This document shows, in pieces, positions 1-14,322 of a DNA stretch of 64,000 nt (position 1 is the stretch's first letter; every line of letters begins with the position of its first letter). The stretch comes from Cyclobacteriaceae bacterium. GTDB taxonomy: Bacteria; Bacteroidota; Bacteroidia; Cytophagales; Cyclobacteriaceae. Below the pieces are notes generated by a model. It had not been told where the DNA came from. It worked only from the letters and a program-made list of their open reading frames with translations, and made no database searches. A program made the position numbers and the translations under genes. Location: NCBI GenBank assembly GCA_019694875.1, contig JAIBBC010000001.1, forward strand, positions 682,001 to 746,000, in the 5' to 3' direction.

Positions 1-528
1 ATAATTGGTACCGAGCTTCATTGCAAGGTCTATATCGTCTCGCGTAGCTGTTCCTTCCTGAACAGTGTAATACGCTTCATTAATAATCATACAAATAACG
101 CGAGGGGTCACCAATCCTACTCGATCATCTACCTGCATAAACTCTGTGCCCAATTTTTTAGCGATCTCCGCTAGTTGAATAATATCTGTTGGACGTAGCA
201 CGCTTACCTCCATAACCTCTCTATTTAAAAAAGTAGGAAGTCCATTAAATCCAAAAAGTGTAGCCTTAATTTCGTGACCGCGAAGACTAGACAGCTCTGC
301 CAGGGAAATCTTAGCAGTGTTTACGAAAACTTTAGCTTGAGCTTTATTTTCATAAATCTCCACCTTATATGGTTCCTCATCTAGAATAAAGTCAAGCACG
401 AGATCCTTATTTTCAACAAATCTCTCTGCTTCCCGGTGATCATTCTCTACGGTGAAATGGTGACCTTCTCCAAACTTTGCTTTAGCTTCTTCGAGGTTAG
501 TTGATGCGCCAATAACAAGAATCTTCAT
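1..528 (-). CDS. 3-hydroxyacyl-CoA dehydrogenase-like protein, second copy (3' end outside window)
   Basis: The reverse strand is open for 176 codons from ATG at 528 (a second ATG lies at 531) to the window edge. The product is about 70% identical by eye to the complete protein at 13654-14322. It shares the N-terminal KILVIG-type pseudo-Rossmann strand, the FVNTAKISLAEL block, GFNGLPTF and the 3HCDH C-terminal motif DDRVGLVTPRVICMIINEAY. The family is known for NAD-dependent oxidation of 3-hydroxyacyl-CoA, but this short form may not be a full enzyme. The start is only about 10 bp after the stop of the XRE regulator gene, so the two are probably co-transcribed. Third codon positions are more AT-rich than in the resident copy, which suggests a foreign origin. 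Truncation here is by the window edge; whether the gene is whole cannot be seen. Confidence 0.85.
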   Translation of the reverse strand, partial: MKILVIGASTNLEEAKAKFGEGHHFTVENDHREAERFVENKDLVLDFILDEEPYKVEIYENKAQAKVFVNTAKISLAELSSLRGHEIKATLFGFNGLPTFLNREVMEVSVLRPTDIIQLAEIAKKLGTEFMQVDDRVGLVTPRVICMIINEAYYTVQEGTATRDDIDLAMKLGTNY

Positions 529-540
529 CATATTGATACG

Positions 541-921
541 TCAGAGATTCTTTTCGATTACTTCTCCAAATTGTTTTGACTTCAATTTTCTATATTCCGA
601 CATCTCGAATCTTTCCCTCAAATACTCTAGAATTTTCAATTGTTCGACTCCGGAGAGAGTCTTGACTTTTTCGAAATAAGCCGTTAGCTCATCTGTAGGT
701 GAACCTTTAAGGAGGAAATCTGCAGTCGTTTCAAGTTCGTTAGCAATGTTCAATAAAACAGCCGAAGTGGGACTCTGGGCATCACTTTCATAGTTCGAAA
801 TCTGAACGTGCGAAACTTTTACTCTTTTAGCCAATTCGTTCATCGAAATCCCCCGATCAGTCCTCAGGGATTGAATGCGTTTACCAAGTGTTATTTCTTC
901 GTTTTTACCTCGTTTTGCCAT
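541..921 (-). CDS. XRE-family helix-turn-helix regulator
   Basis: This 126-residue protein has a Cro/C1-type helix-turn-helix at about residues 12-72, with the classic pattern of a recognition helix in VSHVQISNYE. A short helical tail (about 80-126) may be for dimerisation. It is transcribed divergently from the transposition operon that begins at 1237 and sits directly upstream of the second 3HCDH-like gene, with a gap of about 10 bp. XRE proteins usually repress their own promoter, so the repeat-rich 922-1236 interval is the obvious operator region. Whether it controls the tns genes, the dehydrogenase-like gene or both is inference. Confidence 0.85.
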   Translation of the reverse strand: MAKRGKNEEITLGKRIQSLRTDRGISMNELAKRVKVSHVQISNYESDAQSPTSAVLLNIANELETTADFLLKGSPTDELTAYFEKVKTLSGVEQLKILEYLRERFEMSEYRKLKSKQFGEVIEKNL

Positions 922-1236
922 GATTTTATTCTATCACTTCGCAACCTATTCAAACCAGCCTGGATCACAAGCTAAATAATAGTTGTGTGCAATTGTAATT
1001 ATTATTACATTTAATTGTAATTAAAGTTACAACGCTTGAAACTCTTTGATTTTGGACTTCTGGACTTCATCTGTTTTGTTTCGGAATGCCTATTCAAAGA
1101 TACTGAAAGAACTCTGTTACGCATCACGTAACAAAAATAAAAAGTTACACATGTACACGACCCCGCGACCAAAAAGTAAACGCAATTGAAAAGAAGAACC
1201 CTTACACACAAATGAAATAACCTAAACTCAAATCAT
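922..1236. promoter_or_regulatory. Divergent intergenic control region with repeated GTTAC and AATTGTAATTA motifs
   Basis: This 315-bp AT-rich gap separates the XRE gene (leftward) from the transposition operon (rightward) and holds no convincing gene. The 11-mer AATTGTAATTA occurs at 991-1001 and 1013-1023, exactly 22 bp apart, or about two helical turns. An inverted repeat TGTAAT-N4-ATTACA lies at 994-1009. A second one, TGTTACG-N5-CGTAACA, lies at 1115-1133. Further GTTAC half-sites are at 1026-1030 and 1144-1148. These fit operators for the adjacent XRE protein. The transposon's tnsA-side end could also lie here, but no inverted copy of the right-end repeats was recognised. Confidence 0.55.
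1115..1133. promoter_or_regulatory. Perfect 7-bp-arm inverted repeat, candidate operator
   Basis: TGTTACG and CGTAACA flank a 5-base centre (CATCA). The site lies about 100 bp upstream of the first gene of the transposition operon and about 190 bp upstream of the divergent XRE gene. The same half-site GTTAC recurs three more times within 125 bp. Symmetry and recurrence suggest a dimeric repressor site; the XRE product is the natural candidate, but binding is inferred. Confidence 0.4.
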
Positions 1237-2346
1237 ATGAAACTTAGAAAACCAATTTCTCACAATCATCTCCAACCCAACCTTAGTGAAAATGAGTTTG
1301 TAGTTCTCAGTGAATTCATGAATGAAGTCGTTGTCACATCTACACAACAAAGTTCACAAGTAATTGGGAACCCATTTCTAAATCTTGCAATTAGGGAAGG
1401 CATAATTACCGGTATCTACTTAACATTTGAAGAATTGAATGGATTAAGTAGTTACCAGTTCGCGAAAACCATTCTGTCACATGAAATTAAATTTCCAGAC
1501 AGTATAAGACACGATATATCCGTCTTTCCCTGGGAAGGAAAGCCCACACGTACCAAAAGTCAAGAACATGGACAAGCTGATTCCGGGCTACGTAAAATCA
1601 CGATAACCATCGAAGGAGAAAAGCTCTACGATTCAAGTCTCCGACTTGTTATAAGAAAAATTAAATCAAAAATAGTAGAGCGACTTAAAGACCAAATTAC
1701 CTTGGACGGAAACAAATCCATTTGTACATCTCTAACGGAGTTATACACAGCCGTTATAACAGAAGTTGAATTCTATAATCATGGAATGAACTCGGAAGCA
1801 GAGCAGGAGAATTCCATCAGTCAGAATATTGGGTCACGCGAAGGGCTTAAAATTTCAGAAGCTCTGTACTCATCGATAATCTATGAGAAAAGGCTTTGGT
1901 GGTTGAACTTAAAATCAAAGGAGGTTACTGTTGATAAAATGGGCATACACTATAAAGGCAAATGCTTTACGCCAACTGACGCTGATGGGTACAATTGTCT
2001 TTGTACGATCTTAAATGACCAAAGTAGAACAACTGTAACAGTATATCCCAGTAGCCAACTGCATTCGAAACTTTTTTGGGTTCACCAAATGCATTTCATC
2101 CCCTTAACAGAGCGCAATGAACATTTGCAAACAGATGAAGTTCAAGAATTAATATTTCAATCCAAATCCTCCATTATGAAAAAGGAAAAATCTACAACTG
2201 TAAAAATCCGAAACGATCGTCATGCCAATCGTAGAACTGCAAAAATTGAATCTTCTCGTTTCGATGAGAGGCAAAACAAATCCACATTCATGATTCCTAA
2301 ACTCCAGAGCAACTGTGAATACTTACTGAGTTGCTATTTGGCGTGA
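1237..2346 (+). CDS. Catalytically inactive TnsB-like protein (TnsB paralogue)
   Basis: This 369-residue protein can be aligned by eye with the TnsB encoded at 3114-5138. Residues 20-59 (EFVVL...IGNP...IITG) match TnsB 261-302, LTFE at 62-65 matches 305-308, ITITIE at 121-126 matches the HVTVE strand, and 165-290 match TnsB 428-560 (SLTELY, LWWLNL, GIHYKGKCF, LFWVHQMHFIPL). This covers the RNase H core and the C-terminal beta-barrel. TnsB catalytic D266 corresponds to S25, E389 to R140, and the D354 region to a KPTR stretch without acid. The N-terminal DNA-binding domains of TnsB (about 240 residues) are missing, and the C-terminal tail is different and basic. The reading frame is intact over 369 codons. 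It precedes tnsA by 40 bp, so it is probably the first gene of the operon. A role as a TnsB or TnsC partner, or as a regulator, is inference; a decaying relic is the alternative. Confidence 0.8.
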   Translation: MKLRKPISHNHLQPNLSENEFVVLSEFMNEVVVTSTQQSSQVIGNPFLNLAIREGIITGIYLTFEELNGLSSYQFAKTILSHEIKFPDSIRHDISVFPWEGKPTRTKSQEHGQADSGLRKITITIEGEKLYDSSLRLVIRKIKSKIVERLKDQITLDGNKSICTSLTELYTAVITEVEFYNHGMNSEAEQENSISQNIGSREGLKISEALYSSIIYEKRLWWLNLKSKEVTVDKMGIHYKGKCFTPTDADGYNCLCTILNDQSRTTVTVYPSSQLHSKLFWVHQMHFIPLTERNEHLQTDEVQELIFQSKSSIMKKEKSTTVKIRNDRHANRRTAKIESSRFDERQNKSTFMIPKLQSNCEYLLSCYLA

Positions 2347-2386: not shown

Positions 2387-3130
2387 ATGAAAAACAGAAT
2401 ATCAGATAAGGGCAGGTTAAAAAGACATCATTCTAATCAAACTTATAGGCCCTGGATTAGAGTGCATGATTTTAGTTCTAAGGGGCTTGTTTCAAGAATC
2501 TACTCTGAGCTTACAGGACGAGTTCATCACCTTTTATCTCAACTTGAAACAAAAGTGTTCTACTGGTGCGAATGGTTCGCAAAGGAAATAAAGGAGCAAT
2601 ATGCACTCTTGCCCCTGTCCGAGACAATCGAGATCGCGGCCCTGGCAGGACTTCATCATCCCCAGGTGAATGGAGCGGAAGTCATTATGAGCACAGACTT
2701 CCTAGTTGACCTCGATGAGGGTCCAATTGCAATCTCCGTGAAGCCTTCATCAAAATTAACCGCAAGGACCCTTGCAAAGCTAGAAATCGAGCGACAGTAC
2801 TTTGAGCGAAGAAAAATCCCCTACTACATAATTACGGAAAAGGAAATACCGGAAATCTTCATTAAGAACATTTGTCTTGCTCGCCAAGCCGCCAAAAGAC
2901 CAGACATCAGTGTCTCCGACAATAAATTCCTTTCTGACCTGATACAGTACCCCGAAGCAAATGGCTCTATTCTTCAAACACTACAGAAGATGGCTATTCA
3001 ATATGAGTGCACTTATCCAGAGTTAAAGAACCTGTATCTCCATTTGATCTGGAAAAAGAGAATCTCTTTTGATTTATCTGTGAAGCATGCTATGGATTTA
3101 AAAAAAGGGGATTATGATATCACAAATTGA
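2387..3130 (+). CDS. tnsA: TnsA transposon endonuclease
   Basis: At 247 residues this is close to Tn7 TnsA (273). TnsA has a restriction-enzyme-like fold and nicks the 5' ends of the transposon, which enables cut-and-paste. The nuclease core is visible: E54 in SQLETKVF, D104 in MSTDFLVD and K119 in ISVKP, with spacings close to Tn7 E63, D114 and K132. The Tn7 Q130 position is serine here (S117). The remaining region (about 165-247) is the helical C-terminal domain that contacts TnsC and DNA. The gene overlaps tnsB by 17 bp, consistent with translational coupling. Confidence 0.92.
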   Translation: MKNRISDKGRLKRHHSNQTYRPWIRVHDFSSKGLVSRIYSELTGRVHHLLSQLETKVFYWCEWFAKEIKEQYALLPLSETIEIAALAGLHHPQVNGAEVIMSTDFLVDLDEGPIAISVKPSSKLTARTLAKLEIERQYFERRKIPYYIITEKEIPEIFIKNICLARQAAKRPDISVSDNKFLSDLIQYPEANGSILQTLQKMAIQYECTYPELKNLYLHLIWKKRISFDLSVKHAMDLKKGDYDITN

Positions 3131-5138
3131 CGTAGCCAAAAAATCAGTATACAAAATTGCTGCTGAAAAAAATCTCTTCTATCGCGTGCTGTATGTCAAT
3201 CAGCTTAGCGATAAAATTTACGTCCTGGAGCTTCGGAACAATCCAAAAAAGCCAGGGAATTACGTTGAAATGTTCTACTCCGATTTTACGGAAGACATAC
3301 GACAAGGAAAATTGATTAAGCATCCAGACATCTTCATACGCAATGCCGTTGAAGAAAAGATTTCCAAAAAAGCCCGAGAACTAAGAGATAAGGCTTGGGT
3401 GCAAATTGAAAGCTTAGTCAAGAAAGAACCAAACATTTACATTCCTGCACTTCGATTTGAAATTATTAAAGAAGCAAATGAACAAGAGGGAGGAGCCTCT
3501 ATAACAAGCTATTATAAATGGCTAAAGTCTTTTGACGCATGGGGGCAAATAAAAAATGCTTTGATTCCATGGTTAAGCAACTGCGGTGCGCCCGGAGTAG
3601 AGAAATCTAATTGCGAACTCAATGACGACACTAAGGCGATTATTAGAAAGGGTTATGCAGAATTCTTCGTAGGAAAAGCAACGCTCAGAAAAGCTTATAA
3701 AGACACTCTGCGAGTGTATTACAATCCAAAGCTTCACGGTGAAAAAGAATTCACCAAAGACCAATTTTATTATTGGGGAAGTATGGAGTGGACTTATTCC
3801 GAAGAGTTACAGCGAAAAATAGGTCATCGAAAATTCAAAAGCACCAGACGCCTGTTAAAGGGGAGGGCCACTGACATGGCCAGCTATGTTGGTGAGTTAT
3901 TTATGATTGACTGGACAATGATGGACATACATGTTGTAAGTTCATTAAACCGAAATGATTACATAGGTAGGCCCACTCTTTATCTAGTAGTTGATACAGT
4001 TTCCAGAGTCATTACTGGTGTACTCCTCACATTTGAAAGTCCCAGCCACATTACTCTATGCAATGCATTTTATAATGCAGGGCGCAACAAAGTAGAGTTT
4101 GCCAAAGAGTGTGGATTCGACATTGGAGAAGACGAATGGACAACAAACATTATTTCAAACAGATTGATGGGTGATAGAGGAGAACTATTGAGTACCAAAG
4201 CAGACTCACTGGTAAACAACTTGCACGTAACAGTTGAGAACACGAGGGCATATTCACCTGAGTTGAAAGGAATTATTGAAAATTTAATTGGCAGAATTAG
4301 CGATCGTGTAAAACAACGGTTCGATGCAAAAGGAAAAGTAGAAAAAGACTTTGGAGAACGGCTTTCAAATGATTCCAGAAAAGAAGCAACAGTAACACTC
4401 AACGAGCTATACGAAATAACTATTCGTTGTATCATCGAGTACAACAATCATCATTGGATCGACACCTACCCATTGACCACTGAAATGGTTCGGGATAAAG
4501 TGAAACCAATACCAATGGAGATTTGGAAGTGGGCTAAAGCAAATGGTTACATGACTGGAGCAGAGTTTGAAAAAAGAACTCTTTGGTTGAGTCTCCTTGA
4601 AAATAAAATGGTTACTCCATCACGAAAAGGAATCTACTTGAATAAACAAGATTTTGTTCCAGTTAATGCTGATGACTTCAGGCTTCTTGAAAATATCATC
4701 TGTGCTCCAATCGTTGATGAAATCAAAATATCATATGACCCCAGAGTATATCATGAGATTTTTTGGATTCACGAGAACAACTTTATCCCTCTGAGAACTA
4801 GAGGAGAAAATGACGCAAAATATTCTAACGAATGGGAGGTAATTGGAACCAATGAAAGTTACAAGGAGCTGAGCAAAGAGTACAAACAAAAGGAACTTCT
4901 TATTGAGATTGAAAATGACAAGAAGTTCGCAACTATCATTGGTACAGAAAAGAAAACTGAACCGACTAACCTTAAGAAAGCGAAACCAGGTAAGAAGGCA
5001 GAGATTGCTCTCGGGAGGAAGGCAATTCCATCATTCGGTTCAACACAGCAAAAAATACAAACCAATTTATTTGAACAGGATTCAAAATACGGAAGACCTG
5101 ATTACTCTGAAGAACTAAACCAACTCGATAATCTATGA
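3114..5138 (+). CDS. tnsB: TnsB DDE transposase
   Basis: This 674-residue transposase binds the transposon ends and joins 3' ends to target DNA. The N-terminal about 240 residues hold helix-turn-helix DNA-binding domains. The RNase H core follows with D266 (ELFMIDWT), D354 (MGDRGE) and E389 (KGIIEN). The 88- and 35-residue spacings equal those of Tn7 TnsB D273, D361 and E396, so the triad is intact. A beta-barrel domain spans about 490-565, and a long basic tail (about 600-674) probably contacts TnsC. The start overlaps the tnsA end by 17 bp, and the stop overlaps the tnsC start by 4 bp (ATGA). Only about 60% of its length is represented in the upstream inactive paralogue. Confidence 0.95.
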   Translation: MISQIDVAKKSVYKIAAEKNLFYRVLYVNQLSDKIYVLELRNNPKKPGNYVEMFYSDFTEDIRQGKLIKHPDIFIRNAVEEKISKKARELRDKAWVQIESLVKKEPNIYIPALRFEIIKEANEQEGGASITSYYKWLKSFDAWGQIKNALIPWLSNCGAPGVEKSNCELNDDTKAIIRKGYAEFFVGKATLRKAYKDTLRVYYNPKLHGEKEFTKDQFYYWGSMEWTYSEELQRKIGHRKFKSTRRLLKGRATDMASYVGELFMIDWTMMDIHVVSSLNRNDYIGRPTLYLVVDTVSRVITGVLLTFESPSHITLCNAFYNAGRNKVEFAKECGFDIGEDEWTTNIISNRLMGDRGELLSTKADSLVNNLHVTVENTRAYSPELKGIIENLIGRISDRVKQRFDAKGKVEKDFGERLSNDSRKEATVTLNELYEITIRCIIEYNNHHWIDTYPLTTEMVRDKVKPIPMEIWKWAKANGYMTGAEFEKRTLWLSLLENKMVTPSRKGIYLNKQDFVPVNADDFRLLENIICAPIVDEIKISYDPRVYHEIFWIHENNFIPLRTRGENDAKYSNEWEVIGTNESYKELSKEYKQKELLIEIENDKKFATIIGTEKKTEPTNLKKAKPGKKAEIALGRKAIPSFGSTQQKIQTNLFEQDSKYGRPDYSEELNQLDNL

Positions 5139-6649
5139 AAAAGAAGAGCAAACCCACTCCTACAGATGCAAATCCATTTTTAGGAGCAATTTCTGAAAAA
5201 CTAAGCTTCCTAGACTTCGCAAAGAAAATCCGTAAGACGCCACCGTTTCTGGAACAGAAAATACCGAAAGATCCGAACGCTCGTAAGAGTTTGTTGAAGG
5301 ATATCAAAAATAAGTGGTTTCATGTTACGTCTTTGCACTACGAGGTTTACGAATGTTTTCATGAAATAATTGAAACAAGATTTCAAAATCTTGTGAAGAG
5401 TTTTAACGAAATACTTGAGAATATTTATGAATGGAACGATCATCACAAGGATCGCAACTTTGTTCCGAAGTCAGTTGTCAACAACATCATTGATGGATTT
5501 ACTATAATCGGTCCAAGCGGTTTGGGAAAGACGCTTACCGTTAACACCATTCTTCAAACGTTTTTCCCGCAGGTAATAATCCACGAAAGGTTTAAGCAAC
5601 TCGTTTACCTAAAAGTAAATTGTACCAGCATAGGCTCAACCAAATCACTGTGCTTCCTAATTCTTCATGAATTTGATAAAGTACTCGGCACTAAATATTT
5701 TGAAAGGTATTCAACGGCTACGTATTCAGCAGAAAAATTAATTCCGGTCATCGCTGACCTCTGTCATTTACATCGATGTGCCTGTTTAATTATTGATGAG
5801 TGTAATCACCTTTCTGACATGAAAGGTCAAAGTAAAAATCAGATAATTGGCTTCTTGAAAAACTTGAACCAAGCGATTGGCCTACCGATTGTTTATATCG
5901 GAACTCCAGAAGCTCTACCTATTCTCGCCGGCAATCTTCAAATAGCGAGAAGAAGTCAAGGTATTCAATCAATCATGTGGGATAGATATCAGGAGGAAGG
6001 CGAAGATAAAAAAGAAGATAAGGAATGGGGAAGGCTTCTTAAATCATTATGGACGATTCAGGTACTTTTTAAACCTGGTGATCTTACTCCAAAACTAAGA
6101 AAGACCTATTACCGCTTAAGTCAAGGCGTGCTCGATGTCCTGATTAAGCTCCATGTTCAAGCTCAAAAACGAGCACTCTCACGAGGTCTCGAAACAATTG
6201 ATGAGAATCTTCTGGAGGCAGTCGCTAAGGATTACTTCGCTTTAACTAACCCAATGATTAATGCCATCCGATCAAAAAATTCATTCTTGATTAGCCAGTA
6301 CCGAGACATCTCAATGGATAATCTTCGCATTATCAAACAGGCAGATGGGCCAGATGAGTTAACGCGTTTACTCAATCGTGACTTTAGTTCTGATGAGATT
6401 AAACTTTGTATGCAAGTATTGCTGAAGAAAAATCCAGAGTTAAAGCCAGAAGACTTAATAGCCCAGGCGAAATCAACCCTCGACCAGGTGAAAGCTGTTT
6501 CCCCAGCTAAGGCGAAAACAGGACGCAAGCCAACTGGGCGATTTGTTGATGCCGGAAAAAGTGTAAAATCAAAAAACAAGCATGAAGCTTTAGTAAAAGA
6601 AGACATCATTAAGCCATTATCAGCACTAAGCCCTAACAAAGAAAATTAA
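5135..6649 (+). CDS. tnsC: TnsC AAA+ ATPase, transposition regulator
   Basis: TnsC forms ATP-dependent filaments or rings on DNA that link the targeting protein to the TnsAB transposase. The 504-residue product has Walker A GPSGLGKT at 126-133 and Walker B CLIIDE at 217-222, followed by an arginine-rich sensor region. The C-terminal about 100 residues are rich in Lys, Pro and Ala (SPAKAKTGRKPTG) and likely form the flexible tail that contacts TnsA/TnsB. Length and order match Tn7 TnsC (555). It starts within the last codons of tnsB and is followed by a 10-bp-stem hairpin before the first TniQ gene. Confidence 0.95.
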   Translation: MKKKSKPTPTDANPFLGAISEKLSFLDFAKKIRKTPPFLEQKIPKDPNARKSLLKDIKNKWFHVTSLHYEVYECFHEIIETRFQNLVKSFNEILENIYEWNDHHKDRNFVPKSVVNNIIDGFTIIGPSGLGKTLTVNTILQTFFPQVIIHERFKQLVYLKVNCTSIGSTKSLCFLILHEFDKVLGTKYFERYSTATYSAEKLIPVIADLCHLHRCACLIIDECNHLSDMKGQSKNQIIGFLKNLNQAIGLPIVYIGTPEALPILAGNLQIARRSQGIQSIMWDRYQEEGEDKKEDKEWGRLLKSLWTIQVLFKPGDLTPKLRKTYYRLSQGVLDVLIKLHVQAQKRALSRGLETIDENLLEAVAKDYFALTNPMINAIRSKNSFLISQYRDISMDNLRIIKQADGPDELTRLLNRDFSSDEIKLCMQVLLKKNPELKPEDLIAQAKSTLDQVKAVSPAKAKTGRKPTGRFVDAGKSVKSKNKHEALVKEDIIKPLSALSPNKEN

Positions 6650-6660
6650 ATGTAGAAAAT

Positions 6661-6692
6661 GGGAACCTCAGTCATGAATGCTTGAGGTTCCC
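6661..6692 (+). other. Perfect hairpin between tnsC and the first tniQ gene
   Basis: GGGAACCTCA (6661-6670) and TGAGGTTCCC (6683-6692) form a perfect 10-bp stem with a 12-base loop. There is no U-tract after it, so it is not a typical intrinsic terminator. It ends 9 bases before the chosen ATG at 6702, within the ribosome footprint. It could lower translation of the targeting protein relative to TnsABC, or stabilise the upstream mRNA 3' end after processing. Both functions are inference. Confidence 0.6.
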
Positions 6693-6701
6693 CTGTTACT
6701 T

Positions 6702-8495
6702 ATGATACAATCTTTCATCGAGCAATTTCCGGAAGAGGTCTTTTATAGTATCATAGCCAGGTACTATAAGCAAACCTTAGCTTTTAGTCCCAAGAGCTTT
6801 TCACGACAGTTATTCAACTCACCGCTAGGTGCAGCCACTATCGATCTGCCAAGTCATTTAGAATGCTTTCACTTAAATACGAAACAGATCTTTCCATATA
6901 GCACAGACGACATAATTGAAAACTTTACGCTTTACCCATTTTACCTGCCATTCTTAAGGTTTGAAAAAAGATCCTCAATTATTAATGCGATGAAAGGTGA
7001 TGTGGGAAACACAGTTCATACAAGGATCGGAATCAACGCTTCAAAAATTGTTACATATCGATACCCACGTTACTGTCCTGCTTGCATTGAAGAGAACACA
7101 GCAGAAGATCCTTATTGGGAACGTCTTCCTCAGACGGATCTGATAATTTGTCCAAAACATAACTGTTTCATTCATTCGTATGTTCCGGATCTTGCTGAGC
7201 TCAATAGATCACTCTTCATTTCAGCGCCTAAAGGCTTGGCACTTCACAATCCCCCTGTATTTAATGAAGATCAAAAGCTCTATGACCTTGCCGTCATTTA
7301 CCAAAAGATCCTGAATAAAGAATATGACTTTGACATTAATCTGATTAATTATCATGAAAAGGTTAGGGAGGGCGGATATGCAAAGGAAAAAAATCTTGAT
7401 GTTCAAAAACTCATCAACGATTTCAATCGGTTTCATAGTCAAGAGTTCCTTTACAAGCTTTTTCCCAGAGCAAATCAATATGATCGGTTGCAATGGCTAC
7501 CCGATATCATAAAACGGCCCCTTCATATTTTTCACCCCTTGCGACACATTCTTACCCACGAATTTGTCAAGTCGATTGAGGCTGCTCCAAAAGCAATTCA
7601 GTCCTTCGGGCGCGGTCCATGGCCTTGTCTCAATAAAGCTTCTGATCATTTCCATAAAAATGTAATACACAACATAGAGTATCACATTGACCCGAAAAGT
7701 AAGCGTCAGATCGGTGTGTTGAGCTGCATCTGCGGCATGGTTTATACTAAAAGTATTTTGACCAAGAATGGATCATCAATTGAGTTTGTAAGGATAAAAG
7801 AATGGGGACCATTATGGATCAAAAGACTACGAAACGAAATCAAAACCGAAAAATCATTTAGAACAATTGCATCAATTCTAGGGACAGACGCCAAAACTAT
7901 CTCAAAACTCTCCAAACAGTTTAACAACACTGTTGATAAAAATACGGACAACAGGGAAACACGTACTGCATATAGAAAACGATGGGTAAAACTTCTAAAT
8001 AAATTTTCGAATCGAAAGGTTTTTAATGCCAGGCTGGCCGAGCCAAAAATCTATGCGTGGCTGTATAGAAATGATAATTCATGGCTTCTTACCATTAACA
8101 AACTTCACAGTCAAAACTCACTTCAGACAGAACTAAAATTAGATTGGCAGCAAATGGATCAGGATTTAGTAATCAAATTATCTGAGTCTTTTGAAAAGTT
8201 AAGGCAGGAAAATTTCAGGGGTAGAATTTCAAGAACGCTCCTTGCAAAAATCATAAACCATGAAAAATACCTTCTAGGGAAGAATGCGAAAAAGCTGCCA
8301 CTAAGCATAAGCTATTTGGAAAAGGTTTGTGAAACGCGCGAGGAGTATCAGATCAAAAGAATTAAGCTGGCCAAAAAACAACTCGATGCAGAGCTCGAAA
8401 TACCACTTCAATGGAAAATTATGCGAAAGGCTGGCTTGAGAAAAGAATTATCTCCTGTCGTGGAAATGGAAATCAATAAAATAATTGGATACTGA
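6702..8495 (+). CDS. TnsD/TniQ-family target-site selection protein, copy 1
   Basis: TnsD-type proteins recognise a specific attachment site and recruit TnsC there. The product is 597 residues. The start at 6702 is chosen because MIQSFIEQFPEEVFYSIIARY lines up with the start of the next TniQ protein; an ATG at 6678 lies in the loop of the upstream hairpin and adds only eight residues. An N-terminal TniQ domain has the zinc motif C125-x2-C128-x21-C150-x2-H153. A second TnsD-type zinc region follows (WPCLNKASDHFH at about 307-318, CICG at 342-345). The C-terminal 240 residues are basic and probably bind DNA. Length is like Tn7 TnsD (508) or longer, so it is a full targeting protein and not a short TniQ. 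Confidence 0.88.
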   Translation: MIQSFIEQFPEEVFYSIIARYYKQTLAFSPKSFSRQLFNSPLGAATIDLPSHLECFHLNTKQIFPYSTDDIIENFTLYPFYLPFLRFEKRSSIINAMKGDVGNTVHTRIGINASKIVTYRYPRYCPACIEENTAEDPYWERLPQTDLIICPKHNCFIHSYVPDLAELNRSLFISAPKGLALHNPPVFNEDQKLYDLAVIYQKILNKEYDFDINLINYHEKVREGGYAKEKNLDVQKLINDFNRFHSQEFLYKLFPRANQYDRLQWLPDIIKRPLHIFHPLRHILTHEFVKSIEAAPKAIQSFGRGPWPCLNKASDHFHKNVIHNIEYHIDPKSKRQIGVLSCICGMVYTKSILTKNGSSIEFVRIKEWGPLWIKRLRNEIKTEKSFRTIASILGTDAKTISKLSKQFNNTVDKNTDNRETRTAYRKRWVKLLNKFSNRKVFNARLAEPKIYAWLYRNDNSWLLTINKLHSQNSLQTELKLDWQQMDQDLVIKLSESFEKLRQENFRGRISRTLLAKIINHEKYLLGKNAKKLPLSISYLEKVCETREEYQIKRIKLAKKQLDAELEIPLQWKIMRKAGLRKELSPVVEMEINKIIGY

Positions 8496-8528: not shown

Positions 8529-10328
8529 ATGATTGCTTACTTTGTTGACCCAAGACCAGATGAGTTATTCTATAGTATTATTTGTCGCTATAAGGATCAT
8601 ACCCTTTCGGGTCACTGGATGATTAACGAGGATTTATTTGGTGCTGGAAAGAATATCCCCTCAAATATTTTCTATCCACATCATTTAGGGAATTTCTACA
8701 ATTCAATTGGAAAACATTTCTCGCTAACCCCGGAGGATATCATTCAAAACCATACTGTCTTGCCGCAGTACTTCAGGTTCACTTCACAAGAAAAAGCGGA
8801 TAGGATAAAAAGAGATTTAATTGAAAATAAACCTCTCACCATTTTTCACAGAACCAAAAGTAAGACCACTACTCTCAAGTTTTGCCCAAAGTGTCTTACA
8901 GAGGATTTATCAACCTATCACGAACCCTATTGGCATTTGTCGCACAATACAAATGAGTTTATTCGAATATGCGTCAAACACAACTGTTTTCTCGAAAGCT
9001 GGACACCCCCTGAGGATAAATTAAAAATGGTAAACCTTCATTCTGCGAAATCACTGGCTAAGATTAAAATACTCCCAAGATTCAATGACAATCCACTCTT
9101 ATTAAAGATTTCTGAAAAAATGGTTTCTCTTCTTCATGATACAGAATCTATCAACAAAGAAGAAATTATTTCTAAGGCGATTCAGAAAGGAATAATCAAA
9201 TATTCAAGCAGCAAAATCTGCATAGTAAAATCACAATTCAATGAATTCAAGGTCGAAATAAGAAAGTTGGATGAGAAATATTTTGAGCAGTTGGAACATG
9301 CATTAGTAAATCAGGGATTTTTAAACAAGGTTTTTTCTGGCGAGCATCCTCTACTTTTTGTATTGCTTGAATGCTTGATCGAAAGGTTACCCAATAAATT
9401 ATTGCGATTTGGGGACCCCTTTAAATGCATTAATAAAATTTGTCCGAAGTACGGTCAGCCTGCTCTTCACCCTAAAAGCCTGTTCAATCGCGCATTAAAA
9501 CTGTATCCGTTTAATGGGCTAGCATTAATACACTGTAAAGCTTGTGGCATGATTTATCGAGCAGATTTCTCAGCAGCGAAGAATAAAAAATACTGGAGAA
9601 TTGAATATGGAGAGCTATTTACTTCACGCGTTTATAACTACTTGAATAAAGGACATTCCCTTTCTGAAATTTCAAGGAATGTTGACTTTGGTTGGGACCA
9701 ATTAAAAACCTTGATCGCCTGCGATTTTAAAAGAATTATTAGCCAAAAGGAACCAATATCTCCTGCCGAATTCTTAAAAAATAGAACAAGACACAGGTCT
9801 ATTTGGAAAAATGAATTGGCGTCAAAATCATTCATTTCCATTTCCAAGTCAAGAAAAAAACTCCATCCAACTTACAAATGGTTATTAACTCATGATAAAG
9901 ATTGGATGATCAACTTCAACAAATCCTACACAAAAAGAAAGGGTGGTCACTCATCAAAAAAAATGACGCTAACAGAAGAAGACAGCTTCTATCTCGACCT
10001 ACTCATAAAGAAGAAAAAAGAATTCCTAGCTAACGATGTTCAAAAAAGATTAAATAAAACGTTGTTGCTAAATATGGATGAATTTATCCCCATACGGATT
10101 AGACATAGGCTATTACCTAAGTGCACCAAATTTCTCAACGCAGAATGTGAGACACCATTCGATTACAAACTGAGGCAGCTTAGAAAGTATATCAAAAAGA
10201 ATACAGGAGTTCTAAAGTTCACAAAAACTTTTCTTTTCAATCAGTTTGGTTTCATCGTAAACAGATTGACTTACAGGGAAGTAAAAGACGTGAACTTAAT
10301 TCTCAATCCTATTGGGCATAGCATATAA
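8529..10328 (+). CDS. TnsD/TniQ-family target-site selection protein, copy 2
   Basis: A second full-length targeting protein of 599 residues begins 33 bp after the first. The N-terminus (MIAYFVDPRPDELFYSIICRY) parallels copy 1. The TniQ zinc motif is C119-x2-C122-x25-C148-x2-H151. A second metal region includes FKCINKICPKYG (about 300) and HCKACGMIY (about 337). The C-terminal half differs strongly from copy 1, as expected if it reads a different DNA sequence. In Tn7-like elements with two TnsD/TniQ proteins, one usually serves a chromosomal site and the other an alternative target or guide complex. No CRISPR genes are present here, so a second DNA site or a mobile target is the simpler reading. 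Confidence 0.86.
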   Translation: MIAYFVDPRPDELFYSIICRYKDHTLSGHWMINEDLFGAGKNIPSNIFYPHHLGNFYNSIGKHFSLTPEDIIQNHTVLPQYFRFTSQEKADRIKRDLIENKPLTIFHRTKSKTTTLKFCPKCLTEDLSTYHEPYWHLSHNTNEFIRICVKHNCFLESWTPPEDKLKMVNLHSAKSLAKIKILPRFNDNPLLLKISEKMVSLLHDTESINKEEIISKAIQKGIIKYSSSKICIVKSQFNEFKVEIRKLDEKYFEQLEHALVNQGFLNKVFSGEHPLLFVLLECLIERLPNKLLRFGDPFKCINKICPKYGQPALHPKSLFNRALKLYPFNGLALIHCKACGMIYRADFSAAKNKKYWRIEYGELFTSRVYNYLNKGHSLSEISRNVDFGWDQLKTLIACDFKRIISQKEPISPAEFLKNRTRHRSIWKNELASKSFISISKSRKKLHPTYKWLLTHDKDWMINFNKSYTKRKGGHSSKKMTLTEEDSFYLDLLIKKKKEFLANDVQKRLNKTLLLNMDEFIPIRIRHRLLPKCTKFLNAECETPFDYKLRQLRKYIKKNTGVLKFTKTFLFNQFGFIVNRLTYREVKDVNLILNPIGHSI

Positions 10329-12231: not shown

Positions 12232-12270
12232 GGTCTGCATCTTTTACTGGATCATCGCCAATCTGTTTTA

Positions 12271-12360
12271 CGACTTTTCTCCAAAATTGTGCGCTCCCGA
12301 ACAGTTCCATTAAGCGACTTTTCTACAAAATGCATCACGCGACTTCTCTGCTATTTCACA
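12271..12360. repeat. Transposon right-end direct repeats (candidate TnsB binding sites)
   Basis: Three related repeats lie in the same orientation: CGACTTTTCTCCAAAAT from 12271, CGACTTTTCTACAAAAT from 12315 and CGACTTCTCTGCTATTT from 12340. Offsets are 44 and 25 bp. The last repeat runs to TTTCACA at 12360, so the end read inward starts TGTGAAA, fitting the TGT terminus of Tn7-like elements. Arrays of about 22-bp repeats at the ends are the known TnsB binding sites in Tn7. The sequence between the repeats is not conserved. The boundary at 12360 is an inference. Confidence 0.7.
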
Positions 12361-12388
12361 AAACCCTTTCACCTCGAAAGGGTTTTTT
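12360..12388 (+). terminator. Rho-independent terminator immediately outside the transposon end
   Basis: AAAACCCTTT (12360-12369) and AAAGGGTTTT (12377-12386) form a perfect stem with a 7-base loop, followed by T residues to 12388. It would stop + strand transcription leaving the cargo genes before the MFS gene. Its position directly at the inferred insertion point resembles Tn7 insertion at the terminator of its target gene, so it may have belonged to an ancestral host gene now on the far side of the element. Confidence 0.8.
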
Positions 12389-12508: not shown

Positions 12509-13657
12509 ATGCCGTCACCTTTTCGCGCACCACGCGCATACCGGATTGCCATAAGTTCATTCTTTTTTATCCAGGGATTAACCTTTGCCAGCTGGGCCAG
12601 CCGCATTCCGGATATTAAAAATGCATTTGATCTCAGTGATGCAGCCTGGGGCGGAATACTGCTGTGCCTGCCGATCGGCCAGTTTTTTGCGCTTGCCTTG
12701 TCAGGTTTTTTGGTGACACGCTACGGGAGCCGGATTGTATTAATCACGACTTCCCTTCTGTATCCCGCCACATTATTGGTGATCGGGCTGGCATCAAGCC
12801 CGGTATGGTTAATTGTCGCGCTTTTGCTTACCGGTTTTTTCGGAAACATTTACAATATCGCTGTCAATACGCAGGCTGTCGGCATTGAGGCGCTGTACGG
12901 CCGCAGCATCATGGCAAGTTTTCACGGATTGTGGAGTCTCGCAGGATTTGCAGGTGGGTTGATCGGAACTTTTATGATCGCGAAAAACTTGTCACCCTTC
13001 CAGCATTACTGGATAATCAATGGCCTAACGTTATTGCTCACGTTTCTATTTGTCCGATCTACGCTTCCGCGTGATACCCGAACCAGCGATGCAAAACCTA
13101 AACTGTTTGTCAAGCCTGATAACGCTATCCTGATTCTAGGAATACTTGCATTTTCCTGCATGATCTGCGAAGGAACCATGTTCGACTGGGCGGGAGTTTA
13201 TTTTGAAAAGATTGTCGCTGCGAAAAAAGAATACGTACAGTTTGGCTTCGTGGCTTTTATGAGTACCATGGCAAGTGGCAGACTGATTGCCGATTTCCTG
13301 ATCATGAAACTTGGCACTAAACGAATGATCCGGCTCAGCGGCTTCATGATCTTTATTGGAATACTAACCGTTGTTGTGTTCCCGTATTTCGTTCCTTCCA
13401 TTATTGGATTACTGATTACCGGCTTGGGGGTATCATCAGTTGTACCGTTAAGCTACGGGCTTGCCGGGCAGTCGAAAACCATGCCGGCCGGGCAGGCGCT
13501 TGCAGCGGTCTCCTCACTGGGGTTTTTAGGATTTCTGATTGCACCCCCCCTGATTGGATTTGTTTCGGAAGGCTACACGCTTCGCACCGCGTTTGCGTTG
13601 ATCGCGCTGATGGGATTAGCCGTTGCGTTTTTATCCGGGAAGGTTCAGCGCAATTAA
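12509..13657 (+). CDS. MFS transporter
   Basis: This 382-residue integral membrane protein has about 12 hydrophobic segments and a GGLIGT-type loop, and is of the FucP/YbjJ-like major facilitator type. An early FASWASRIPDIKNAF motif is typical of the YbjJ group of predicted sugar or multidrug permeases. It acts in the inner membrane; substrate unknown. Its composition (more GC-rich) matches the chromosome, not the transposon. Its 3' end overlaps the convergent 3HCDH-like gene by 4 bp. Confidence 0.85.
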   Translation: MPSPFRAPRAYRIAISSFFFIQGLTFASWASRIPDIKNAFDLSDAAWGGILLCLPIGQFFALALSGFLVTRYGSRIVLITTSLLYPATLLVIGLASSPVWLIVALLLTGFFGNIYNIAVNTQAVGIEALYGRSIMASFHGLWSLAGFAGGLIGTFMIAKNLSPFQHYWIINGLTLLLTFLFVRSTLPRDTRTSDAKPKLFVKPDNAILILGILAFSCMICEGTMFDWAGVYFEKIVAAKKEYVQFGFVAFMSTMASGRLIADFLIMKLGTKRMIRLSGFMIFIGILTVVVFPYFVPSIIGLLITGLGVSSVVPLSYGLAGQSKTMPAGQALAAVSSLGFLGFLIAPPLIGFVSEGYTLRTAFALIALMGLAVAFLSGKVQRN

Positions 13658-14322
13658 GTCGATTTCAAATATTCCTTCTTAAGCTTGCCGCAGATTTTGT
13701 AGCGTTCATCGTGTGTGTCTTCATACACCGCTTCGAGCAATTCGTAAACATGCTTAATACCGATTCGCTGGCACCATTCGAAAGGTCCATAGGGATAATT
13801 TGTTCCAAGCTTCATACTCAGATCAATGTCTTCGCGTGAAGCCGTGCCTTCTTCAGCCGTATAATAAGCTTCATTAATGATCATGCAGATGATACGCGGA
13901 GTAACCAAACCAACACGATCGTCAACCAGCAAATATTCCGTATTTAAATTTTGACAAATATCTCTCAGTTGTCCTTCGTCACTCTTTTCCAGCAGGCTTA
14001 CCTCCAGCACGCTCCTGTTTACAAACGTGGGCAGTCCGTTAAACCCAAACAGCCTTGCTTTCAAATTATGATTTGCGAGGTTTGAAAGTTCAGCCAGTGA
14101 AATCTTGGCCGTATTCACAAATACCTTTGCATTTGCCTTATCTGCATAAATTTCAACCTGAAACGGATCTTCATCCAGAATAAAATCCAGCACTAAATCA
14201 CTTCCCTGAACAAATCGCTCCGCTTCACGATGATCGCGCTCGAATGTGTATTTATGACCGTCACCAAACTTCGCTTTGGCTTCGTCTAAATTCACCTGCT
14301 CACCGATTACGAGAATATTCAT
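13654..14322 (-). CDS. 3-hydroxyacyl-CoA dehydrogenase-like protein, resident copy
   Basis: The complete 222-residue protein has an N-terminal NILVIG start, FVNTAKISLAEL and the 3HCDH C-terminal domain (DDRVGLVTPR...GTNYPYGPFEW) of the FadB/PaaH type. It is shorter than a classical two-domain enzyme (about 280-310) and lacks a clear GxGxxG dinucleotide motif, so catalysis is uncertain. The homologue at the left window edge shares about 70% identity. The gene is divergent from ridA and converges on the MFS gene. It probably acts in fatty-acid or aromatic CoA-ester metabolism. Confidence 0.82.
   Translation of the reverse strand: MNILVIGEQVNLDEAKAKFGDGHKYTFERDHREAERFVQGSDLVLDFILDEDPFQVEIYADKANAKVFVNTAKISLAELSNLANHNLKARLFGFNGLPTFVNRSVLEVSLLEKSDEGQLRDICQNLNTEYLLVDDRVGLVTPRIICMIINEAYYTAEEGTASREDIDLSMKLGTNYPYGPFEWCQRIGIKHVYELLEAVYEDTHDERYKICGKLKKEYLKST

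Follow-up and report, generated by a model that had tools for sequence, protein, structure and literature searches.

Some truncated transposases, Inh of Tn5/IS50 among them, inhibit transposition in trans; Inh is a shorter product of the transposase gene itself, made from an internal start, in which the catalytic residues are kept. The known complexes, as described in the available sections of PMC13228271, contain two catalytic and two structural TnsB protomers. In published CAST complexes, TnsB reaches TnsC through two parts, its C-terminal hook and its beta-barrel; mutations at the barrel interface strongly reduced transposition, and in type V-K systems the barrel was required for stimulating TnsC disassembly (PMC13228271, available sections). 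According to the available part of the survey PMC10293859, TnsF, an inactivated tyrosine recombinase, is the target selector of Tn6022. How Tn7-like elements keep TnsB and TnsC in check where there is no proper target is a question under current study.

We analyzed a window of 64,000 nucleotides (the whole stretch of DNA) carrying a Tn7-like transposition operon. The open reading frame at 1237–2346 (P0001) was found at the head of this operon, as had been predicted: tnsA begins 40 bp past its stop codon, and both genes lie on one strand. The operon and its upstream region comprise the following features.

541–921, minus strand: divergent gene of 126 aa, helix-turn-helix type by look, likely the regulator of the operon (similar genes in relatives)
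922–1236, no strand: intergenic region between the divergent genes, presumed promoter/operator, containing an inverted repeat (1112–1136)
1237–2346, plus strand: dead, N-terminally truncated TnsB paralogue, P0001, 369 aa (assigned by homology, broken triad, and constraint)
2387–3130, plus strand: tnsA (Pfam Tn7_TnsA-like_N, 3.8e-15)
3114–5138, plus strand: tnsB, full length, with the triad D266/D354/E389 intact (alignments)
5135–6649, plus strand: tnsC, AAA+ ATPase (Pfam AAA_22, 8.4e-14; TniB, 6.7e-10)
6678–8495, plus strand: tniQ/tnsD gene 1 (Pfam TnsD, 2.6e-64; TniQ, 3.8e-13)
8529–10328, plus strand: tniQ/tnsD gene 2 (Pfam TniQ, 1.7e-16; TnsD, 1.4e-12)

Genes similar to the putative regulator occupy the same place in the related loci L021, L030, L064, and L069 (BLASTP E values from 6e-11 to 1e-6). 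Promoter-like matches in 922–1236 were no more numerous than in shuffled sequences. The inverted repeat at 1112–1136 is terminator-like on the minus strand and may be an operator for the gene at 541–921.

The original prediction had described P0001 as a TnsB paralogue, and the alignments agree with this. Residues 20–328 of P0001 matched residues 261–603 of the TnsB encoded in its own operon (BLASTP, E 5e-19), with 80 of 343 columns identical (23%) and 153 of 343 positive (45%). The profile search for a TnsB match that had been proposed as a check was significant (hhalign against a profile of six TnsBs, probability 96.7, E 3.3e-10), and an HMM built from 13 TnsBs matched residues 217–349 (E 3.3e-13 in a two-sequence search). 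Homology with TnsB over the RNase H core and the beta-barrel was thus present by BLASTP, hhalign, and HMM. No significant match that would name the protein was found in Pfam, NCBIfam, PHROGs, PADLOC, or PDB sequences (phmmer).

Positions of interest within P0001 were located as follows.

1309–1311, plus strand: codon of S25, facing the catalytic D266 of TnsB (alignments)
1564–1566, plus strand: codon of E110, facing D354 of TnsB in BLASTP only (MAFFT and hhalign differ)
1654–1656, plus strand: codon of R140, facing the catalytic E389 of TnsB (alignments)
1885–2127, plus strand: beta-barrel region, residues 217–297 (HMM match from 217; strands of the model at 228–292)

In gap-free stretches of the alignment, D266 of the element's own TnsB stands opposite S25 and E389 opposite R140, exactly as had been claimed. 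The further claim that the D354 region of P0001 holds no acid was too firm: this column is occupied by E110 in the BLASTP alignment, by Q in MAFFT, and by a gap in hhalign. All three catalytic acids were present in 14 of the 14 TnsBs compared (13 other elements and the element's own; two pairs among them are almost identical). By a hand-counted HMMER alignment to 7pik, D266/D354/E389 correspond to D273/D361/E396 of Tn7; this mapping assumes one extra start residue in the 703-residue 7pik chain, and the Tn7 numbers were taken over from the original prediction. As aligned, the DDE triad of P0001 is broken, with two of the three metal ligands lost.

The N-terminal DNA-binding domains were likewise reported as missing. 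The stop-to-stop frame of P0001 comprises 376 codons, and its ATG is located about 7 codons past the upstream stop. No TnsB remnant of the N-terminal part was present in window 501–1400 or 2201–2420, where the sole TnsB match was a 25-residue chance match (E 2.0). Since the open frame extends only about 7 codons upstream of the ATG and no TnsB remnant precedes it, the N-terminal part is absent and not just unread, and this claim stands. On sequence grounds, P0001 is a real and well-supported dead TnsB paralogue, and the single known case.

P0001 can be assigned to this TnsB clade and most likely arose by duplication in the element's own TnsB line. In a 14-row tree, it paired with its own TnsB (support 74/96); its branch measured 3.32 changes per column, vs. 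a median end branch of 0.49. In an earlier tree, the support for this pair was 52% and the branch length was 2.60. Placement of P0001 with L064, L062, or L022 was rejected (p 0.018, 0.0014, and 0.0045, respectively), while placement with L021, L030, or L061 was not rejected (p 0.09, 0.31, and 0.06, respectively). Only 1 column was common to P0001 and its own TnsB alone, vs. up to 7 columns common to P0001 and others. The own TnsB is therefore best described as the favored, not proven, sister of P0001.

Among aligned identical residues of the two proteins (M and W excluded), 27 of 76 had the same codon vs. 30.3 expected at saturation; the split of P0001 and its own TnsB is therefore old, and a recent TnsB copy was ruled out by these saturated synonymous codons. 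Identity between the two genes at the first, second, and third codon positions was 0.379/0.521/0.327. The corresponding values were 0.28/0.28/0.27 for random pairing (0.277 at the second position), 0.45/0.55–0.59/0.33–0.35 for four TnsB–TnsB pairs, and 0.53/0.53/0.54 for simulated neutral decay to a similar protein identity. Conservative replacements made up 32% of the non-identical pairs in P0001, 20% in the neutral simulation, and 27–35% in the four TnsB–TnsB pairs. Neutral decay to 24% identity introduced a mean of about 19 stops per 369 codons and left 0 of 300 runs open, vs. 0 stops in P0001. Constrained second positions, conservative replacements, and the absence of stops all suggest that an open frame was maintained once catalysis had been lost. 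Of the 58 core columns, defined as common to the window TnsB and at least three of four relatives, 41 were changed in P0001; we infer from this that a substantial share of the changes should postdate the loss of catalysis, with the frame staying open.

These data bear on the reading of P0001 as a functionless relic, a decaying TnsB copy that is open by chance, which we consider somewhat unlikely. It would account for the occurrence in a single genome, the very long branch, and the weak codon bias: the codon-usage score of P0001 was 0.082, vs. 0.19–0.23 for tnsA, tnsB, and tniQ1 (these three belonged to the training set), and was exceeded by those of two frames read in reverse across the same gene (0.094 each). 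However, second positions are constrained in spite of saturated synonymous codons, the replacement pattern resembles that of working TnsBs, none of the 300 neutral simulations remained open at the divergence of P0001, and a good part of the loss of the 41 core columns should have come about after catalysis was gone, while the frame stayed open. The synonymous score of the neighboring regulator gene was likewise weak (−0.024 vs. −0.014). P0001 looks kept rather than freshly broken, and on balance it is probably a working protein.

Overlapping draws of genomes from the order (390), the family (390), and the genus (17) contained no orthologue of P0001; the matches were P0001 itself, its own TnsB, and the TnsB of genome G608. 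A mixed profile (P0001 and six TnsBs) matched 6 of 375 genomes of the phylum, and the paralogue was recovered in its own genome (G000) only; this search scored at most three candidates per genome, and a weak copy could escape it. P0001 had no match in plasmids (E limit 1e-5) or phages, nor in viral contigs or species genomes searched with short exact patterns. For comparison, its own TnsB matched 14 of the 390 order genomes, and a profile of three TnsBs matched 29 of the 390 family genomes, distant TniA-like ones included. A dead TnsB paralogue was not found in the titles and abstract openings listed by searches of the open-access literature, and none is mentioned in the available parts of the Tn7-like surveys PMC10293859 and PMC8649781 or of the review PMC11406308. 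The former survey, in its available part, detected TnsB via PF00665 at the gathering cut-off; PF00665 had no match at E up to 1 in P0001 or in the full TnsB of the window.

Among the loci retrieved, 14 closer elements could be read upstream of tnsA (L021, L022, L023, L024, L030, L060, L062, L063, L064, L065, L067, L068, L069, and L090); L066, whose contig ends 224 bp past tnsA, and L061 and L100, whose contigs end before tnsA, were excluded. The original prediction had suggested looking for the same gene next to tnsA in other Tn7-like elements and had named its absence from all related elements as grounds for refuting the reading. In this sample, a TnsB-derived gene was found upstream of tnsA in 0 of 14 elements, an outcome that speaks against the original interpretation, which is otherwise supported in part. 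The slot before tnsA was held by a TniQ gene in three of them (L021, L060, and L090) and by a 203-aa open reading frame in one (L030), while the other 10 had no further operon gene there.

With TniQ genes in this slot in three relatives and with TnsF as a precedent for an inactivated recombinase selecting targets (PMC10293859, available part), P0001 could be imagined as a target-selection adaptor steering TnsC from a slot used for target selectors. This is very improbable in our view: the element already has two TniQ/TnsD genes, and no DNA-binding domain was recognized in P0001 (Pfam, NCBIfam, PHROGs).

The 203-aa head gene of G608 (P0012) was considered as a second dead TnsB, a suspicion that found no support: hhalign gave E values of 0.78 and 0.62 and BLASTP 1.6 and 2.6; of two HMMER profiles, one matched at E 0.24 and the second did not match; and Smith–Waterman comparison with 15 sequences under two matrices reached a best shuffle p of 0.013 in 30 comparisons. 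P0012 had no Pfam, PHROG, or PADLOC match, and its single-sequence fold was unusable (mean pLDDT 32). This unrelated-looking gene (L030 7612–8223) lies between a divergent helix-turn-helix-like gene and tnsA. The 388-aa TnsB-like open reading frame of G586 (L100, a 4.6-kb contig) was also rejected as a dead copy; its second aspartate and glutamate are kept. At L100 209–1700, a tnsB starting inside its domain lies beside a small open reading frame, maybe of an insertion sequence, as judged by eye.

The classical attachment site of Tn7 is glmS. In L024, L063, L065, L067, and L068, tnsA is located just downstream of a gene with what we take to be a glmS-like start. A small gene, presumably RidA-like (L062 7192–7572 and 15566–15931), flanks the element of G536 on both sides, as if it were the target. 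The element of the window was delimited by the following features.

12270–12360, plus strand: right terminus of the element, closing with CACA and holding three repeats (12271, 12315, and 12340; repeat analysis)
12361–12365, no strand: AAACC, presumed 5-bp target duplication (other copy outside the window, at C1:636247, window −45753)

Past AAACC at the right end, a terminator-like stretch was found upstream of an MFS-like gene. The same MFS-like gene adjoins Tn7-like elements in G588 and G599. It was noted beside the elements of two other genomes at L060 14637–16491 and L064 3484–3777, and part of the attachment sequence is present twice in L060, about 1.7 kb apart. Within 74 kb, AAACC-TGTG occurred once, at C1:636247, where a second Tn7-like element has just ended with its right end. 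CACA-AAACC occurred twice, at both junctions; about 0.3 occurrences of each were expected on one strand by base composition. The two elements apparently share one attachment site, arranged in tandem, and AAACC marks both their junction and the right end. The tandem junction is located at L021 14240–14315 (G000:C1 about 636240–636315) and the right-end site at window 12357–12365; the TnsBs of the two elements are 34% identical.

We read the element of the window as 58,109 bp long, from window −45748 to 12360, with presumably intact ends. Its left end is placed provisionally, by the letters AAACC-TGTG and by a terminal match that is weak, as 8 of 1000 shuffles reach its score; no cluster of sites like those of the right end was detected by a scan at this putative end. 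Since each end is bordered by a presumed target duplication, the element presumably moved as a unit. One gene, dehydrogenase-like by eye, was noted in two copies on the minus strand, the first within the element at window 1–531 (on to about −146) and the second in the flanking host DNA at 13654–14322; their products have 225 and 222 aa, and the copies are 72% identical over 268 bp of DNA.

Regional identity to the own TnsB, given for P0001/L021/L030, was 29/52/33% in the first RNase H part, 16/38/30% in the middle part with D354, 23/39/39% in the part around E389, 17/42/33% in the linker, 28/37/44% in the barrel, and 22/21/27% in the tail. By eye, barrel and tail seem the better preserved parts of P0001; conserved columns were retained at 10 of 20 in barrel and tail vs. 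17 of 58 in the core, a difference that is not significant (p 0.11). The AlphaFold2 model of P0001, predicted with TnsBs in the alignment, contained strands, two long helices, and a barrel (mean pLDDT 52, pTM 0.39). Foldseek with this model returned 14 hits at E ≤ 0.001, all of them TnsB chains, with TM-scores of 0.20–0.27 by query length; as TnsBs entered the alignment of a weak model, this match is not independent evidence. Where TnsB has its TnsC-binding C-terminal hook, the last residues of P0001 are hydrophobic, with a short helix predicted at low confidence, and resemble neither the end of the own TnsB nor the acidic ends of most TnsBs. Contact residues gave a mixed picture: R504 of TnsB, the one TnsC-contact position that could be mapped onto P0001, is kept as K234, but its neighbor K505 has become M235.

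P0001 retains the RNase H shell, the helices, and the barrel in traces, and known complexes hold two distal, structural TnsB protomers (PMC13228271, available sections). Both points would suit a subunit that transposition requires for structural reasons, one that stands silently beside TnsB (and TnsA) in the transpososome. We regard this as unlikely: structural protomers sit on end DNA, whereas P0001 is devoid of end-binding domains, and the 14 relatives whose upstream region can be read all do without a gene of this kind in that place.

Our preferred reading, offered tentatively and short of an even chance, is that P0001 works in trans, either braking transposition or guarding its fidelity, and touches TnsC and/or TnsB via its retained barrel and tail. 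In favor of this reading stand the TnsB homology with a broken triad, the signs of an old split and of constraint, the place beside tnsA, the presumed target duplications, and the TnsC contacts of the TnsB barrel and hook in published complexes. P0001 would be kept as a separate protein, presumably made together with the transposition operon. Its barrel and tail, perhaps with the RNase H shell, may occupy TnsC or strip it; alternatively, P0001 may join TnsB into assemblies unable to act. The direction of the effect on transposition is one that we infer. Against the brake reading stand the single genome, the 0 of 14 related elements, the low codon-usage score, the p value of 0.11 for retention of barrel and tail, the replacement of K505 with M235, and an end unlike the acidic TnsB ends. 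Put more broadly, there is an almost even chance that one copy of the element's transposase has been converted into a dedicated component without catalytic activity, whose action on TnsC or TnsB controls transposition.

Such a transposase-derived control component would belong to a class of Tn7 component that we did not find described in the literature searched. If the proposal is true, a transposon is able to make a regulator from its own transposase, and a natural protein consisting of RNase H shell, barrel, and tail, and lacking both end binding and chemistry, would be a ready tool for separating TnsC contact from catalysis; as a single case, the finding carries limited weight for now.

In comparison with known systems, P0001 shares with TnsB (PDB 7pik, 9y7b, 30jv, 7svw) a homologous RNase H core, linker, barrel, and part of the tail. 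It differs from TnsB in lacking the N-terminal DNA-binding domains and a working DDE triad, in its C-terminal end, and in being a separate gene beside an intact tnsB. Like Inh of Tn5, it is an N-terminally truncated transposase without end binding, present beside the full-length enzyme; unlike Inh, it is encoded by a separate, far diverged gene, is 23% identical to its own TnsB, and has a broken triad. With TnsF (PMC10293859, available part) it shares the character of a catalytically inactive recombinase as a Tn7-like component; P0001, however, has no tyrosine recombinase match (Pfam, NCBIfam) and is derived from a DDE transposase.
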